A DNA stretch of 50,675 nucleotides from Verrucomicrobiota bacterium (GTDB lineage: Bacteria; Verrucomicrobiota; Verrucomicrobiia; Chthoniobacterales; UBA10450), in contig QHRA01000176.1 in assembly GCA_003221295.1 (NCBI GenBank), forward strand, positions 1-50,675, written 5' to 3'. Below are positions 2,389 through 44,919 of the stretch, piece after piece. The first letter of the stretch is position 1; each line of letters starts with the position of its first letter. Under the pieces are notes generated by a model that was not told where the DNA came from, searched no databases, and saw only the letters and a list, made by a program, of their open reading frames with translations. A program made the translations under genes and the position numbers.

Positions 2389-3558
2389 TCAACTACTGGT
2401 TACAAGCTCCGAGTGCTGATGCATCCATTCTCCTAATAATCGTTTGAGCTCGCTAATTCCGCGTCCTTCCTTCGCCGAAATCGGGACGATGGTGCGCTGT
2501 GGGAAGCGTTTTTGAAAATCGCGCAAATTTTCCTTTGCCTGCGGCAGGTCCATCTTGTTTGCGACAACAAACCATGGCCGCTCCGACAAACGGGGATGAT
2601 AGAGAGCAATTTCACGACGGAGCGATTCGAGATCAGCGATTGGACTTCGCCCTTCGCTTCCCGCCATGTCCAGGACAAAAAGCAATAAACGGCACCTCGT
2701 GATGTGCCGGAGAAAATCATGGCCGAGTCCAAGATTGCGATGCGCCCCTTCGATTAAACCAGGAATATCAGCGACGGTTGCTCGCCAGTAATCGCCAAGC
2801 TCCACTATCCCAATGACCGGATGCAAGGTGGTGAACGCATAAGGCGCGATCTTTGACTGGGCAGCCGAGATCTGCTGGATCAGTGTCGATTTCCCGGCGT
2901 TGGGATAGCCGACAAGCGCCACGTCTGCGATAGAACGCAGCTCGAGAAGAAAATGACCGCTCTCGCCCTCGCCGCCTTCGGTGTATTCGCGCGGCGCGCG
3001 ATTGCGCGAGCTTTTGAAATGCACATTGCCTTTCCCGCCCGCGCCACCTTTGCAGAGCAGAAACTCCTGATCCTCGCGGGTGAGATCAGCGAGAAGGTCG
3101 GATTGCGCATCGTGGATCGCGGACTGGTCGTCCGGCAAGCGACGCGCTTGCCCTACAATTTCTTCGTCATCAATCGAATTTTCGAAGTCGGGGATTGCAT
3201 TGTCTGATCGGTCCCCTTCAATCCGCACTCCGCCATCCCCACTCCGCAATTGATAAACCATCGTTCCGATCGGAACCTTGACGATCTTGTCCGGCGCATT
3301 CTTGCCATGCATTTTCTTCCCGCGCCCATGCCCACCGTTTTTTGCTTTAATAATGGGCTCGTAGAACAAATGAGCGAGGTGGTCGGTATGTCGATCGGCC
3401 CGCAGGATAATATCGCCGCCGCGGCCGCCATCACCGCCATCCGGTCCCCCTTTAGGAACGAATTTCTCGCGCCGGAAACTGACACATCCGCGTCCGCCCT
3501 TTCCGGCCTGCGCAAAAACTTTGATACGATCGACAAACACGGCTCGGGACACTGCCAC
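2389..3558 (-). CDS. obg: GTPase Obg/CgtA with an in-frame insertion in the Obg domain
   Basis: Glycine-rich Obg domain (FVPKGGPDGGDGGRGGD), G1 GYPNAGKSTL, NKMD, SAKEG; about 50 extra residues between VPIGTMVYQL and LLADLT. Confidence 0.95.
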   Translation of the reverse strand: MAVSRAVFVDRIKVFAQAGKGGRGCVSFRREKFVPKGGPDGGDGGRGGDIILRADRHTDHLAHLFYEPIIKAKNGGHGRGKKMHGKNAPDKIVKVPIGTMVYQLRSGDGGVRIEGDRSDNAIPDFENSIDDEEIVGQARRLPDDQSAIHDAQSDLLADLTREDQEFLLCKGGAGGKGNVHFKSSRNRAPREYTEGGEGESGHFLLELRSIADVALVGYPNAGKSTLIQQISAAQSKIAPYAFTTLHPVIGIVELGDYWRATVADIPGLIEGAHRNLGLGHDFLRHITRCRLLLFVLDMAGSEGRSPIADLESLRREIALYHPRLSERPWFVVANKMDLPQAKENLRDFQKRFPQRTIVPISAKEGRGISELKRLLGEWMHQHSELVTSS

Positions 3559-11742: not shown

Positions 11743-11827
11743 TTGTCATTCCGAGCGAAGTCGAGGAATCTCTAACTATTCTCGTCGGAAAAATTTAGAG
11801 ATGTCTCGACTTCGCTCGACATGACAA
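11743..11827. repeat. Family A palindromic repeat (copy A2), full hairpin
   Basis: ttgtcattccgagcgaagtcgaggaatctcta ... tagagatgtctcgacttcgctcgacatgacaa; arms nearly complementary. Confidence 0.95.
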
Positions 11828-13359
11828 AGGCTACTGAACAAACAAATCCGCTGCGCGAGGGTTTAAGCACGCGCGCCGTGCCGCAGCCGTGTGCGATTGT
11901 CATCTTCGGCGCCACCGGTGACCTGACCCACCGGAAATTGATTCCAGCGCTGTACAATCTTGCCGCCGATGGAGAATTGCCACCGGCGGTGACCGTCATC
12001 GGTTTCGCTCGTCGCCCTAAAAGCGACGACGACTTCCGTAAGGAACTTGCAGAAACCACCAAACAATTTTCGCGTCAGGATGTTCGCGAAGACATCTGGA
12101 AGACTTTTTCGCAATCGCATTTCTACCATCAAAGCGAGTTCGAAGATGAATCGGGATATCAATCGCTCGCCAAGCGTCTCGACAAGATCGACGAAGAACG
12201 CGGTACCCGCGGCAACCGTTTGTTTTATTTCGCGGCCGCCCCGGAGCAATTCGAACCGATCCTGAAAAACCTTGAAGCTGCCGGACTCAATAAAGCGAAG
12301 GAAGGCAGTTGGGCACGCGTCATCATTGAAAAACCGTTCGGACGCGATCTTGCTTCCGCGCAAGAATTAAATCGGGTCGTCTTCGGTGCGTTCGCCGAAA
12401 ATCAGACTTACCGCATCGACCATTTTCTCGGAAAGGAGACGGCACAGAATATTCTCGTTCTCCGCTTCGCTAACGCGATTTTCGAGCCGATCTGGAACGC
12501 GCGCTACATCGATCACGTCCAGATCACTGCCGCCGAAACACTCGGAGTAGAGGGCCGGGCCGGTTACTACGAAACCGCCGGCGCCTTGCGCGACATGGTA
12601 CAAAACCATTTGCTGCAGCTTCTTTGCCTCGTTGCGATGGAGGCGCCGACCGACCTTAGCGCCGATAGCATTCGCGACGAAAAAGTGAAAGTCGTTCGTT
12701 CCTTGCATCATTATCGCGCCGATGAAATCGCGGAGCTGGTTGTGCGCGGCCAATACATCAGGGGCGCGATCAATGCCAAGAATGTTCCGGGTTACCGCGA
12801 GGAAGAAAAAGTGGATCCAAAGTCCGAGACTGAAACTTATGGAGCGCTACGATTGCGCATTGACAACTGGCGCTGGTCGGAGGTTCCCATCTATCTGCGA
12901 GTCGGAAAACGTTTGCCGAAATCTGCCACGGAAATTTCTGTGCACTTCAAGAAAGCGCCGATGGTTTTATTTAATCGTGATAGCACCGAGCACGATCAAA
13001 ATGTGCTCGTCATTCGCATCCAACCCGACGAAGGAATTTCATTGCGGATGATGGCAAAAATCCCAGGAACGAGTCTGCGCATCGAGCCGGTAAAGATGGA
13101 TTTCCATTACGGAACCAGTTTTGGCAAAGCCAGCCCGGAAGCGTATGAACGTTTGCTCCTCGATGCTATGAGCGGCGACGCCACCCTCTTCGCTCGCCGC
13201 GATGAGGTGGAGGAAGCATGGGCATTTATCGACACAATTGAACAGGCCTGGACGGGGAAAGACGCGCCGCCGTTAACATTTTATCCTGCCGGCTCGTGGG
13301 GACCGGAAGAAGCCGATGAACTTCTCGCTCGCGATGGCCGAGCGTGGAGGCGATTATGA
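11821..13359 (+). CDS. zwf: Glucose-6-phosphate 1-dehydrogenase
   Basis: IFGATGDLTHRKLIPALYNL, RIDHFLGKETAQNILVLRFAN, C-terminal YPAGSWGPEEADELL. Confidence 0.96.
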   Translation: MTKATEQTNPLREGLSTRAVPQPCAIVIFGATGDLTHRKLIPALYNLAADGELPPAVTVIGFARRPKSDDDFRKELAETTKQFSRQDVREDIWKTFSQSHFYHQSEFEDESGYQSLAKRLDKIDEERGTRGNRLFYFAAAPEQFEPILKNLEAAGLNKAKEGSWARVIIEKPFGRDLASAQELNRVVFGAFAENQTYRIDHFLGKETAQNILVLRFANAIFEPIWNARYIDHVQITAAETLGVEGRAGYYETAGALRDMVQNHLLQLLCLVAMEAPTDLSADSIRDEKVKVVRSLHHYRADEIAELVVRGQYIRGAINAKNVPGYREEEKVDPKSETETYGALRLRIDNWRWSEVPIYLRVGKRLPKSATEISVHFKKAPMVLFNRDSTEHDQNVLVIRIQPDEGISLRMMAKIPGTSLRIEPVKMDFHYGTSFGKASPEAYERLLLDAMSGDATLFARRDEVEEAWAFIDTIEQAWTGKDAPPLTFYPAGSWGPEEADELLARDGRAWRRL

Positions 13360-13375
13360 AAGAAATCGCTCCACC

Positions 13376-13460
13376 CGTCATCCCGAGCGAAGCTGACGGA
13401 TCCCGCCGCGGAAGCTTTAAGGAAACATCGCGGGATCCCCCGACTGCGCTCGGGATGACG
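13376..13460. repeat. Family A palindromic repeat (copy A3)
   Basis: cgtcatcccgagcgaagctgacggatcccgc ... gcgggatcccccgactgcgctcgggatgacg. Confidence 0.92.
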
Positions 13461-14563: not shown

Positions 14564-14650
14564 TTGTCATTCCGAGCGAAGTCGAGGAATCTCTAACTAT
14601 TCTTTCTCAGGAGAAAACTAGAGATGTCTCGACTTCGCTCGACATGACAA
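14564..14650. repeat. Family A palindromic repeat (copy A4), full hairpin between convergent genes
   Basis: Arms almost identical to copy A2; loop region differs (ctttctcaggagaaaact versus ctcgtcggaaaaattt). Confidence 0.95.
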
Positions 14651-14682
14651 AAGTGAGACCCTGCCGGTGGCGACAATCGCAG

Positions 14683-17664: not shown

Positions 17665-17710
17665 GGTCATCCCGAGCGAAGTCGAGGGATCCCGATGAGC
17701 TAGCTTTAAG
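17665..17710. repeat. Family A repeat, partial copy (A5)
   Basis: ggtcatcccgagcgaagtcgagggatcccgatgagctagctttaag. Confidence 0.85.
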
Positions 17711-17809
17711 ATTTCTGGGCTCTGTCTGTAACGGCGCTCTAAAAGCGCCGAAATTTTTCATGCGCCCGGCGGTCATAGACGCCGCTACAGGATTTAACGT
17801 GAATCACGG

Positions 17810-19912: not shown

Positions 19913-20902
19913 CTACAGCTTTGCTCGCGCCCTTCGCAACCGGCTCCGACTTGCAAGCGTGATCGTGGTTGACGCAATCATGCCGCGCACTTCATTGCGC
20001 GGAACTTTCACGCGTGTGCGTAAAGCTTCCAATCCGCTTTCCTCGAGTAGTGAGAGAGTGCGTACTCCGATCATTGCCGGCAGAACTGTGGCTACGCGCA
20101 CTCGCGGCGGATTGATCGCAATGGAATACTCCAGCCCCGCGTCCAACCCAGCGCGCGCTTCCGCGACCCACCGCAAATAAATTGGCAGAAAATCAGCCGG
20201 CCCGTTCAGCAGATCGGACACCGAAAGATTGGCGGCACGCAATTCGTCCTCCGGAAAATAACAGCGACCTGCGCGTAAATCGCTGCCCGCGTCGCGTAAA
20301 ATATTTACCAACTGCAACCCGCGACCATAATTCGTTCCCAGCTCGAGCATGTCCGCTTCGTCGCGTGCCGTGAAACTCTGCACTTTGCGAAAACAAACGC
20401 GCGTCCAAAATTCGCCTACGCAACCGGCAACCAAATAGGTGTACTCGCGCAATTCCTCTGCATTACCCAGCGCCGCGGGTCCTCCACCCCATCGCGTCAA
20501 ATCCTGACGCTGACCACGCGTGATGATCGCGAGCAGTTCGCGAACATCGCGCTGATCTTCCGGCGAAAGATTTTCCAGCGACCGCAAAATTGCCTCCGCT
20601 GATTCCAACAGCGTCCTTTCCCCCTCCGTCATCCCGAGCGCAGTCGAGGGATCCCGTTGCGAAACAAGAAGCTCTTTCAATGCTTCCCCAATCGCTTGGT
20701 CTTTTCCCGCAATTCCCGCCGCGAAGCGATCCAGCAATTCGATTCGTTTTTCAACATCAACGGCACTGCTGTCGGCAATGGTGTCGCTCGTTCGCGCCAA
20801 TAGATAAGCCAGCGCGACTGGTTCCCGCAGCGCACGTGGCAGTAAGCGAATCGAAATATAAAACGAACGCGAAACCGGTTTCAGCAATTCGAACTGTTTC
20901 AC
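19913..20902 (-). CDS. Squalene/phytoene synthase family protein (trans-isoprenyl diphosphate synthase) carrying a repeat-derived insertion
   Basis: LLKPVSRSFYISIRLLPRALREPVALAYLLARTSDTIADS; ELGTNYGRGLQLVNILRDAGSD; GRCYFPEDEL; GTG start at 20902 proposed, longest ORF extends to 21100. Confidence 0.9.
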   Translation of the reverse strand: MKQFELLKPVSRSFYISIRLLPRALREPVALAYLLARTSDTIADSSAVDVEKRIELLDRFAAGIAGKDQAIGEALKELLVSQRDPSTALGMTEGERTLLESAEAILRSLENLSPEDQRDVRELLAIITRGQRQDLTRWGGGPAALGNAEELREYTYLVAGCVGEFWTRVCFRKVQSFTARDEADMLELGTNYGRGLQLVNILRDAGSDLRAGRCYFPEDELRAANLSVSDLLNGPADFLPIYLRWVAEARAGLDAGLEYSIAINPPRVRVATVLPAMIGVRTLSLLEESGLEALRTRVKVPRNEVRGMIASTTITLASRSRLRRARAKL

Positions 20903-20973
20903 AGGCAAAGGTTGCTCAGCTCGATCCGATCCGCGAGATGTAACTGTGGAAGCGTCGGAAGATTTACGATTCT

Positions 20974-22095
20974 GTGAACGAACCTGAGACGCACACCTCA
21001 AACGTGATCCGGCACCTTTACGTTCATTTTCCATTCTGCGCGCGCATTTGTCCTTACTGTGCTTTTTACAAGACGCGCGGGAACGCAGCGGAGGTCGCAC
21101 GCTTTTGCGAGGCGCTCATCTTCGAAGCGAGGCGAGTTGCGGAAAAATTTCCCCTGATGCTGGAAACAATATTCTTCGGCGGCGGCACCCCAACCGTTCT
21201 CAGCACGGCTCAACTGAAGAACTTGCTCGAGCTATTTCACGAAATTTTCGATCTCGGCGCATTGCGTGAATGGAGCATTGAGGCAAACCCTGGGAGCGTC
21301 TCGGCAAAGAAAGCGGCGGCGTTACGCGAGTCCGGTATCAACCGTATCAGCCTCGGCGTGCAAAGTTGGGACAACCAGCTTTTGAATTTGCTGGGCCGCG
21401 AGCATCATGCAGCCCAGGCAGAAGAGTCGTTTCATATTTTTCGCAGCGCCGGATTTTCCAACATCAGCGTCGACTTGATGTTTGCGTTACCCGGGCAAAC
21501 GGAAACGCAATGGCGCGGTTCCTTGCAGAAAACGATCGCGCTCCAGCCCGAACATATTTCTACCTACTGCCTCACCTATGAGGAGGACACTGAGTTTCTC
21601 GCGCGATTCGCACGTGGCGAATTCGCTGTTAACGATGAAACCGAAGCACGCTTTCTTGACTTGGCGATGACGACGCTCGAGAGCGCTGGCTACGAGCATT
21701 ACGAGATTTCAAATTATGCGCGTCCGGGATTTCGCTCCGAGCACAATCGGGCTTACTGGCGCGGCGCGGACTATATCGGGATCGGTCCAAGTGCGTTTTC
21801 GACGCGCGGATTCGAGCGCTGGCAGAACATCGCCGATCATAATGAATACGCCCGGCGCCTGTTCGCCAACGAATCACCGATCACGTCGATCGAAAAATTA
21901 ACTCCCACAATGAAACGGACCGAGCACATCGCACTCGGCTTGCGGACGAGCGAGGGAATTGTCGTCGATACGATCGATCAAAATCAGGCAGAGGAATTGA
22001 TCAGCGACGGATTGCTCGCGCGCAGGGCAAATCGCTTCGCTTTGACTCGCGCCGGGAAATTGCTAGCCGATTCCGTCGCCGAAGAGTTGTTGTAG
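20974..22095 (+). CDS. hemW: HemW-like radical SAM protein (coproporphyrinogen III oxidase-like)
   Basis: HLYVHFPFCARICPYCAFYK; FFGGGTPTVLS; GVQSWDNQLLNLLGREH; GTG start. Confidence 0.93.
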   Translation: MNEPETHTSNVIRHLYVHFPFCARICPYCAFYKTRGNAAEVARFCEALIFEARRVAEKFPLMLETIFFGGGTPTVLSTAQLKNLLELFHEIFDLGALREWSIEANPGSVSAKKAAALRESGINRISLGVQSWDNQLLNLLGREHHAAQAEESFHIFRSAGFSNISVDLMFALPGQTETQWRGSLQKTIALQPEHISTYCLTYEEDTEFLARFARGEFAVNDETEARFLDLAMTTLESAGYEHYEISNYARPGFRSEHNRAYWRGADYIGIGPSAFSTRGFERWQNIADHNEYARRLFANESPITSIEKLTPTMKRTEHIALGLRTSEGIVVDTIDQNQAEELISDGLLARRANRFALTRAGKLLADSVAEELL

Positions 22096-31315: not shown

Positions 31316-31362
31316 GCGTTGATATGCGCGAAAACTGACTCGTAGCGCTGTACAGAATAGGC

Positions 31363-31392
31363 GGGGTCCCTCGAATCCGCTCGGGATGACGG
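31363..31392. repeat. Family A repeat, partial inverted copy (A7)
   Basis: ggggtccctcgaatccgctcgggatgacgg. Confidence 0.8.
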
Positions 31393-31492
31393 AGCATGGC
31401 CCCGGGTTGTCTCCGATGATTTTTTTCACGCGGCAAGGCAAGGCGTGTGCTGATTGACTTAAGGAGGGTGGATCGTACGTTTCCTGGAGTGA

Positions 31493-36151: not shown

Positions 36152-36796
36152 CTACTCGCGCCAAAGCAGCGCGCGCATCGGCGCAGCATCGCCACCAACG
36201 ATTTTCAGTGGCAGCGCGGCAAATTGGTAAACTCCCGCTTTGACCTCTCTCAGGTCGAGTGACTCAACGATGGCAATCTCTCGGACTGCGAGAGCTTGAT
36301 GATTCGCCAAAACCTTCGCCTCGATCGGATCGACTGAAGGGACATCGATGCCGAGCAAGACAACACGCAGTTCGCTCAACCAGGCGATCGCCTCGGGTTT
36401 CAGCACCGGAATCCAGTCCGGAAATCGTGTCGAATCCGGAAAACAATTCGTTTTCAGCAGGACCCGGCGCGTTTTGGCGATTTGCGCACGCGCATGTTTC
36501 AAATCAACAACGCCGATGGAAGGCTGAGTCCGGGAAAACCTTTTCGCAAGATCGATCACCACCGCCGCTCCGATGTAATTTGCGAGTGGAACGGAGTCGA
36601 TGGCGGCACCTTTTCCGTCGAAATGAAATGGCGCGTCCGCGTGCGTTCCGTTGTGCGCGCTCATGCTCAGTGCACCGACATTGACCGAACAGGTTTGGCT
36701 GAGACGCCAGGTTAGCTCATACCGAAATGGCGTATCCCCAGGCCAGGGGGCGAGATCTTTCGTCAGCGGCCGCGAAATGTCCCAGATCTTTTTCAT
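36152..36796 (-). CDS. Cyclase family protein (kynurenine formamidase-like)
   Basis: IWDISRPLTKDLAPWPGDTPF; SMSAHNGTHADAPFHFDGKGAAID; VLLGIDVPSVDP. Confidence 0.93.
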   Translation of the reverse strand: MKKIWDISRPLTKDLAPWPGDTPFRYELTWRLSQTCSVNVGALSMSAHNGTHADAPFHFDGKGAAIDSVPLANYIGAAVVIDLAKRFSRTQPSIGVVDLKHARAQIAKTRRVLLKTNCFPDSTRFPDWIPVLKPEAIAWLSELRVVLLGIDVPSVDPIEAKVLANHQALAVREIAIVESLDLREVKAGVYQFAALPLKIVGGDAAPMRALLWRE

Positions 36797-38031
36797 CCTG
36801 CGTGGCGCAATTCGGTCACGATTGCCTCGGCCGCATTCGCACTCGCCTCACCCCGCCCGAGTTTCTGGGCTACATTTGCAAAATCGGCGAGCATGCGGCC
36901 GCGTTCCGTTTTGTCGGCGAGCAAACGCGCCACCGCCGCGGCGATCGCGCGCGGTTCTGCTTTGTGCTGAATAAACTCGGGAACAATCTCGCGATTGGCG
37001 AGCACGTTTGGCATTCCCAAATACTTTACTTTCACAACCAGGCGCGCAGCCAAATAAGTAAGCCACGCCACCCGGTAAATCAGGACGAAAGGCAATTGCA
37101 AAAGTGCGGCTTCGAGCGTGGCTGTGCCGGAAGCGACCATTCCAACATTCACGCGGGCCATTACAGAACGAGCGTCGCCCGTAACGATGGAAAACTTTCC
37201 CGTGGCGTGCTTGCCGTAAAGATTGGCGCGGATCAATTCGCCCAATGGCTCGGACGCAGCTGAAACGACGAAACGCAGATCGTGATCTTGATGCGACAAT
37301 TCCACCGCTGCTTTGCGCATGACCGGGAAAATCTTCTTCACCTCGCGCTCGCGACTGCCCGGAAATAAACCGACAAGGTTTTCATCCCGTGCGGAAACGT
37401 CAGTCCGGCTTGCAGCGATGAGGCCTGTTGAAGTTGGCTTTGAGATTTCGTCACGGGATCCCTCGGTCCGAGAGGGACTGGCGTTTTCGCTCGCGATGAT
37501 GGAAGAGGGGCTCGGGATGACTGACATCATCGGGTGGCCTACAAAAATCGCGCGTAAGCACGATGCCTCATAGAGCTCGGGTTCGAATGGGAAAATACAG
37601 AGCATCAAATCAATCGACTGGGCCATCTGCGAAACGCGACGCCGGTTCCACGCCCAAACTTGCGGGCTGATGTAATAAATAATTTTCAACTCTGGAAATT
37701 TCGCGCGCAGCGCACGGGCGAGGCGCAAATTAAATCCCGGGTAATCGATCAGCACGGCTGCGCTTGGCCGCGCAGCATCAATCTCGGAAATGGTGGCCTG
37801 AAATTGCTTTCGAAAAAAAGGGTAACGCCTGATCACTTCCCATAATCCGACGACAGCGGTGTAATCGATCCAATCGCGAAACTTTCCGCCGGCGACCGCG
37901 CGCATTTTCGGCCCGCCGCGTCCCACAAATCGCATTTCCGGCGCACGTGCCCGCAAAGCCTTGAGTAAGGCCGCGCCATGATTGTCACCGCTGCGCTCGC
38001 CCGCAACGAAGTAGACGGTTGCGTCGGGCAT
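36793..38031 (-). CDS. lpxB: Lipid-A-disaccharide synthase with in-frame repeat-derived insertion
   Basis: VAGERSGDNHGAALLKAL; FVGRGGPKMRA; YISPQVWAWNRRRV; insertion VIPSPSSIIASENASPSRTEGSRDEISKPTS before VGLFPGSREREV. Confidence 0.95.
   Translation of the reverse strand: MPDATVYFVAGERSGDNHGAALLKALRARAPEMRFVGRGGPKMRAVAGGKFRDWIDYTAVVGLWEVIRRYPFFRKQFQATISEIDAARPSAAVLIDYPGFNLRLARALRAKFPELKIIYYISPQVWAWNRRRVSQMAQSIDLMLCIFPFEPELYEASCLRAIFVGHPMMSVIPSPSSIIASENASPSRTEGSRDEISKPTSTGLIAASRTDVSARDENLVGLFPGSREREVKKIFPVMRKAAVELSHQDHDLRFVVSAASEPLGELIRANLYGKHATGKFSIVTGDARSVMARVNVGMVASGTATLEAALLQLPFVLIYRVAWLTYLAARLVVKVKYLGMPNVLANREIVPEFIQHKAEPRAIAAAVARLLADKTERGRMLADFANVAQKLGRGEASANAAEAIVTELRHAG
37450..37521. 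repeat. Family A repeat inside lpxB (copy A8)
   Basis: gggatccctcggtccgagagggactggcgttttcgctcgcgatgatgg; matches the reverse complement of the 44815..44858 part of the intergenic copy. Confidence 0.93.
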
Positions 38032-44367: not shown

Positions 44368-44808
44368 ATGGGCCGGCGGCGGGAGGCGCGCCAGGCCGCG
44401 CTGCAATATCATTTCTGGCGCGATATGCAGCACGGCCATAGCCCGGAAAAAATGGAGGATTTCTGGGAATTTCTCCCGACCAAACCGCGCGTCCGCGAAT
44501 TTGCTCAACCCCTTATTGATGGAATGAATGCGCATCTCGCGGAAATCGACGAACGCATTCGGCGATATGCCGAGAATTACGAGTTTCGTCGCATTGCCGC
44601 GGTTGATCGCAACGTTCTGCGTCTGGCCATTTATGAAATGTTGTTCCGCGATGACATTCCGCCTGTTGTCTCCATTAACGAAGCAATCGAGCTCGCAAAG
44701 AAATTCGGCGGAGCGGAATCGGGCCGTTTCGTTAACGGGATTCTCGACCGGGTCCGGAAAGAGCTGACGCGGCCGGCGCGCGAAGCGGTGGCGAAGAGCA
44801 GTGCCTAA
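44368..44808 (+). CDS. nusB: Transcription antitermination factor NusB
   Basis: GRRREARQAALQYHF; AAVDRNVLRLAIYEMLFRDDIPPVVSINEAIELAKKFGGAESGRFVNGILDRV. Confidence 0.95.
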   Translation: MGRRREARQAALQYHFWRDMQHGHSPEKMEDFWEFLPTKPRVREFAQPLIDGMNAHLAEIDERIRRYAENYEFRRIAAVDRNVLRLAIYEMLFRDDIPPVVSINEAIELAKKFGGAESGRFVNGILDRVRKELTRPAREAVAKSSA

Positions 44809-44814
44809 CGATTC

Positions 44815-44919
44815 GTCATCCCGAGCAAAAACGCCAGTCCGGCTCGGACCGAGGGATCCCGAGGCGCAATCTTTAGGCTAACTTAAGCGGGATCTCTCCG
44901 CTTTCGCTCGGGATGACGA
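44815..44919. repeat. Family A repeat, full copy between nusB and ftsY (A9)
   Basis: gtcatcccgagcaaaaacgccagtccggctcggaccgagggatcccg ... cgggatctctccgctttcgctcgggatgac. Confidence 0.93.

Follow-up and report, generated by a model that had tools for sequence, protein, structure and literature searches.

In-frame insertion of a dispersed hairpin repeat into lpxB and other conserved genes of a soil verrucomicrobium

Rickettsia palindromic elements (RPEs) are the model case of repeats that are kept in frame within conserved genes (Ogata 2000, 2002, summarised in PMC2229807 and PMC10969869). One RPE-bearing enzyme, Gmk, was tested, and a near-neutral effect of the element with activity kept is reported (PMC2229807, PMC10969869). 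Small palindromes were later sorted into GTAG- and CGTC-tagged REPs, with intragenic copies in several species (Di Nocera 2013, PMC3733652), and R. conorii RPE-4 and RPE-6, as well as the neisserial dRS3, were assigned to the CGTC group (PMC3733652). That 2013 survey reported no CGTC-tagged REPs from Verrucomicrobia (PMC3733652). Another member of the phylum, Opitutus terrae, had the most intragenic GTAG REPs in the survey, including copies in both uvrA genes, and uvr genes were also among the REP-carrying genes of other species (PMC3733652).

The locus described here is lpxB of a soil verrucomicrobium, which contains a palindromic element that is also dispersed through the genome. It is very probable that this hairpin repeat was inserted in frame into the LpxB linker, that the resulting peptide was tolerated, and that the same occurred in at least seven more genes. 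The window referred to below is the whole stretch of DNA that was analysed, 50,675 nucleotides in length.

The element in lpxB and its orthologues

The gene and the parts of the element within it were located as follows.

36793-38031, minus strand: lpxB, encoding a lipid-A-disaccharide synthase of 412 aa, the host gene of the insert (Pfam LpxB PF02684, E=2.4e-89)
37382-37521, minus strand: in-frame palindromic element of ~140 nt, reading VIPSPSSIIASENASPSRTEGSRDEISKPTSTGLIAASRTDVSARDE, supported by BLASTN against the 44815 copy and by shorter element-free orthologues
37510-37521, minus strand: left terminus of the element, GTCATCCCGAGC
37488-37500, minus strand: a second, duplicated left-end-like motif, ATCATCGCGAGC
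37382-37392, minus strand: right terminus of the element, CACGGGATGA, inverted relative to the left one

Read on the minus strand, GTCATCCCGAGC begins at 37521 and CGGGATGA finishes at 37382. Since the left end and the inverted right end are both present, the lpxB copy is a whole two-armed element and not half of one. The element lies between the motifs FVGHPMMS and LVGLFPGSR, the latter including the PGSR loop that is essential in LpxB (PMC5785501). BLASTN against the whole genome matched it to an intergenic copy at 44815 with 84% identity over 69 nt (E=3.9e-15). An earlier note on this DNA had already identified the two as the same repeat, a match that proved far beyond chance, and the repeat sequences that it quoted from lpxB are present, as is the open reading frame of 412 aa across the entire element. 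Its coordinates (37386-37530) were corrected to those given above, and it had matched the left half only of what is a complete, two-armed copy with its right end in place.

LpxB was sought in 58 genomes, 55 of which gave a match, the source genome included, and the extracted proteins were then aligned. The insert was found in six genomes of the genus (G000, G009, G007, G002, G003 and G010), where it has several lengths between 25 and 47 aa. The element was missing in the congeners G001, G005 and G006 and in all other members of the family with sequence across the site, and the linkers of these element-free proteins were 34-36 aa shorter than that of the source LpxB; the congeners G004 and G008 gave no LpxB match and fell outside the comparison. 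Relative to the element-free G001 and G005, the extra DNA ranged from 48 to 108 nt among the carriers and was always a multiple of three, with the source lpxB gaining 108 nt at the site. The net gain (102-108 nt) was smaller than the element (~140 nt), so that either the linker has been deprived of some of its original sequence or the left end was extended at a later time; the join of the insertion cannot be read exactly from the sequences compared. The left-end duplication, GTCATCCCGAGC...ATCATCGCGAGC, is common to G000, G009 and G007 and missing in G002, G003 and G010. In the latter three the right end is intact as CGGGATGAC, and the G002 element has both ends intact (GTCATCCCGAGC...GCTCGGGATGAC).

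The source genome is a metagenome-assembled genome of 291 contigs, 87% complete and with 6% contamination, and repeats cause misassembly, a source of error that the earlier note had also raised. An assembly or binning artefact is nonetheless very unlikely, because six independent assemblies, most with a divergence of pS ~0.3-0.6, have the insert at one and the same codon position and with the frame kept.

The placement of the insert within the protein was consistent with a tolerated peptide. Phmmer aligned E. coli LpxB (5W8S) to the source LpxB in two blocks (query residues 5-174 and 215-405, E=5.3e-49) that flank the insert, and both PGSR (R201) and the catalytic-base region were retained. 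In an AlphaFold2 model the protein had two domains, and the insert, which lies between the two Rossmann domains of LpxB, formed a loop between strands 161-163 and 216-223 with a pLDDT of 24-27 over residues ~171-210. The model was built on eight sequences and was weak overall (mean pLDDT 66.5), and Foldseek ranked LpxB structures first for it, with poor superposition. The alignment in two blocks and the low-confidence loop together indicate that the linker can accept extra peptide, and the insert of 25-47 aa is, judging from the model, probably disordered.

Several expectations of the earlier note could be compared with these results. The insert peptide that it described is present, although its length differs between species and exceeds the piece quoted. 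Repeat-free orthologues have a shorter segment rather than one of equal length, and the modelled segment is a loop of very low confidence (pLDDT ~25) between the Rossmann domains. Its central claim, that a mobile repeat is tolerated in frame as extra peptide, was upheld by the shorter element-free orthologues, the restriction to in-frame changes of length, the linker position, a relaxation of selection confined to the insert, and the seven further genes with in-frame copies that a search of the genome brought to light.

That the segment is instead a naturally variable linker, resembling the repeat by chance or convergence, is hardly credible. An inter-domain linker does tolerate changes of length, a second genus (G029) has an unrelated expansion of ~10 aa at this position, and the variable linker of ObgE holds a REP-like palindrome that is no insertion. 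Such an origin is contradicted by the two intact element ends in G002, and it must also contend with the E value of 3.9e-15 to a genomic copy, the presence of both termini and the seven other genes in which this element recurs.

The repeat family and its other copies

The 12-mer GTCATCCCGAGC occurred 348 times in the 2.98-Mb genome at one mismatch or less, compared with two occurrences of the reversed control; 12-mers that stood singly in coding regions and had two mismatches were put down to chance. The survey of copies covered 1.43 of the 2.98 Mb, with a bias towards contigs that contain copies, and yielded 131 full (two-armed) elements. Lengths in the first 1.17 Mb clustered near 84, 94, 102 and 111 nt, ~84 nt being the usual form. 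The element consists of two inverted arms, each starting with [C/T]GTCATCCCGAGCG, and a short core between them. Among 228 arms, position -1 was C (0.49) or T (0.33), followed by GTC (0.96-0.97) and AT (0.97-0.98), and the tail after the stem had the consensus CCC then G/C. An 85-nt copy formed a hairpin of ~30 bp between its arms (fold z=-10.9), whereas a single arm had a 5-bp stem with a 12-nt loop and z=+0.33. The terminus GTCATCCCGAGC was found at least once in each of the 61 family genomes examined and was rare in the other families of the order, G087 excepted. A literature search of open-licence papers found no published description of the family.

Transposition is the presumed route by which the copies spread. 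The mechanism is unproven, because the flanks of 114 copies showed no convincing identity of the kind expected of a target-site duplication (3 nt or more); apparent 2-nt duplications fell within the element ends and were rejected. The genome has seven Y1_Tnp matches, and among the four checked for flanking elements only the one on C71 had a copy, ~100 nt away and on one side. RAYT transposases, while present, were therefore too weakly associated with the element to be named as its partner.

The window contains these further copies.

44815-44918, plus strand: full intergenic copy, between an ORF ending at 44808 and the following FtsY-like gene; hairpin z=-5.13
13377-13459, strand not given: full intergenic copy, short variant
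17666-17715, plus strand: one-armed copy
31360-31394, minus strand: one-armed copy
20624-20665, minus strand: one-arm copy, read in frame as QRDPSTALGMT, in a squalene/phytoene synthase gene (19913-21100)

A Pfam SQS_PSY match to residues 74-369 of the squalene/phytoene synthase spans its one-arm copy. A second, AT-richer variant (GTCATTCCGAGCGAAGTCGAGGAATCTCTA...) is present in near-identical form at 11743-11830 and 14564-14651, both intergenic and 2.8 kb apart. The gene for ObgE (2389-3558) has a perfect GTAG-type palindrome, GTAGGGCAAGCGCGTCGCTTGCC, at 3134-3156 on the minus strand, in a variable loop. It was ruled out as an insertion, because the corresponding segment is about equally long in palindrome-free orthologues. 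The source genome seems to harbour GTAG REPs as well, since GTAG with a stem of at least 7 bp was about ten times commoner than control 4-mers (31.7 per 1000 compared with 2.5-4.9).

Most copies lie outside genes, as would be expected if gene-breaking insertions are removed. Eight of the 131 full copies are in frame inside conserved genes, namely lpxB, uvrA, uvrC, tsaD, a nifS-like gene, putA, a glyoxalase-like gene and a resB-like gene, and six of the eight share one phase (VIPSE...RDD). The host genes were identified by Pfam except for putA, which was recognized by its sequence; two long ORFs that span elements (L112 and L116) may be spurious and were excluded from the count. The two excision-repair genes were located as follows.

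L126:2-4291: uvrA with the element
L147:1-1560: uvrC with the element

In the nifS-like cysteine desulfurase the element adjoins the conserved HKFYGPKG motif, and in putA it occupies the linker that joins two enzyme domains. Shorter orthologues without the element were found for tsaD, the nifS-like gene and uvrC. The uvrA insert was clearly missing only in order-level relatives (G037, G038 and G041), and similar inserts were present in several genera of the family. For the glyoxalase-like gene, the hit table indicated that the G006 match is split at the insert.

Three side observations concern individual genes. The two nucleotide-excision-repair genes, uvrA and uvrC, carry the element, by chance or by preference. 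An element copy (L020, C287:6668-6714) is read in frame towards the C-terminal end of an ORF that resembles a DNA polymerase and looks ImuB-like by eye, and at L108:14132-14143 MiaA (IPPT domain) contains VIPSRIVARD, possibly a decayed copy.

Divergence of the inserts

The pooled dN/dS of lpxB was 0.64 in the insert and 0.11 in the flanks, with virtually the same pS (0.421 and 0.424, respectively). The insert peptide is thus almost unconstrained and the surrounding enzyme is under strong purifying selection. As the pS of the insert equals that of the flanks, the insert dates from the species splits or earlier. The hairpin of the lpxB copy has decayed (fold z=-0.73), in keeping with drift of the DNA after an old insertion. 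The insert drifts almost freely while the motifs that flank it are conserved, so that lpxB looks functional and the repeat appears to be a tolerated peptide; judging from the retained frame and the purifying selection on the flanks, the insert is presumably translated and the LpxB that carries it presumably active as an enzyme. The other inserts for which dN/dS was obtained had similar values, 0.77 for uvrA (flanks 0.15), 0.94 for tsaD (flanks 0.10) and 0.53 for the nifS-like gene (flanks 0.13). The pS of the uvrA insert was 0.186 against 0.457 in its flanks, and that of tsaD 0.126 against 0.371.

These values bear on the proposal that the inserts have been co-opted, with selection acting on a function of the peptides or hairpins, such as translation control or an alteration of the repair proteins UvrA and UvrC. 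Both uvrA and uvrC carry the element, uvr genes are among the REP carriers elsewhere (PMC3733652), the uvrA insert is common to several genera, and the pS of the uvrA and tsaD inserts is below that of the flanks. Co-option is still improbable given that dN/dS is 0.5-0.9 in all four inserts, far above the flanks, that peptide lengths vary freely, and that the lpxB hairpin has decayed.

A tentative proposal, which would refine the insertion of a tolerated repeat and not replace it, is that intragenic copies have been repeatedly overwritten by conversion, or the sites re-inserted. Orthologous sites differ in whether they hold the long (SENAxPARxEGS) or the short (SEVEGS) variant of the arm, the inserts of uvrA and tsaD have diverged less than the synonymous sites on either side of them, and the majority of orthologous inserts are about as similar to the G000 pool as to one another. 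The nifS-like inserts of G000 and G009 (L192/L193) are 79% identical, compared with 97% over the 500 nt upstream, which suggests a local replacement of the element. The sequences are short, however, G000 was the sole genome pool compared, and the equal pS of insert and flanks in lpxB is that of plain vertical descent. Intragenic copies may, then, keep exchanging with the genome-wide pool, with the UvrA, TsaD and NifS-like linkers being rewritten repeatedly in frame, and we regard this as possible rather than likely. Among the uvrA orthologues (L304-L315), an insert of the form VEGSR..FKVT.RDPSTPLRYAQDD is common to several genera, and its synonymous divergence is low in comparison with the flanks.

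Returning to the insertion of a tolerated repeat, the very probable course of events is that 1) a non-autonomous hairpin repeat entered the lpxB linker in an ancestor of part of the genus, 2) LpxB survived with a peptide of 25-47 aa, since the frame was undisturbed and the reading phase of the insert has no stop, 3) selection afterwards held the reading frame only, leaving the peptide and the lpxB hairpin to drift, and 4) like insertions took place in the source genome in no fewer than seven additional conserved genes.

Comparison with known palindromic repeats

The value of the case lies in the number of genes and in the shorter orthologues of close relatives, the kind itself being ordinary. 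It provides a repeat family outside Rickettsia whose in-gene copies can be dated, and set beside element-free orthologues of close species, so that whether inserts are neutral or co-opted can be tested one gene at a time. Peptides such as VIPSEVEGSR...RDD, where they occur in verrucomicrobial proteins, derive from the repeat and are not to be read as domains or sites.

Like REPINs and MITEs, the element is short, non-autonomous, bounded by inverted repeats and present in high copy number; unlike them, it has no detected target-site duplication or identified partner transposase. With the GTAG REPs of Opitutus terrae it shares the phylum and the occurrence of intragenic copies, but those belong to another REP superfamily, defined by the GTAG tag and linked to RAYT transposases. 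The resemblance to CGTC REPs, which are defined by a 5' CGTC (or TGTC/CCTC) tag with AT after it, includes the [C/T]GTC tag followed by AT, the inverted pairs, some intragenic copies and no obvious dedicated transposase. However, the single arm has a 5-bp stem and a 12-nt loop where 8-9 bp and 4-5 nt are the defined values, the strong hairpin (~30 bp) forms between the arms, and the tail is CCCG instead of CCA. Because the tag is of the CGTC type while stem, loop and tail depart from the definition, the element was filed as a protein-coding palindromic repeat and not as a CGTC REP or RPE.

Three features that mark an RPE-like class were found: a dispersed hairpin repeat, in-frame copies in several unrelated genes, and shorter element-free orthologues (lpxB, tsaD, nifS-like and uvrC). 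The likeness extends to size and distribution, as RPEs are described as dispersed hairpin repeats of ~100-150 bp, in frame in many conserved genes as well as intergenic, that add a tolerated peptide. The lineage is different, a sequence relation to RPEs is not described, and the likeness is one in the way of working. In this sense the analogy drawn in the earlier note holds, but the unrelated lineage that it offered as a novelty does not, intragenic REPs having been reported from Opitutus terrae in 2013 (PMC3733652). The share of copies in genes was eight of 131 sampled full copies here, compared with nearly half of the first-reported R. conorii RPEs. The kind of event is already known, mainly from Rickettsia, and the family in the source genome is a well-documented new case of it.
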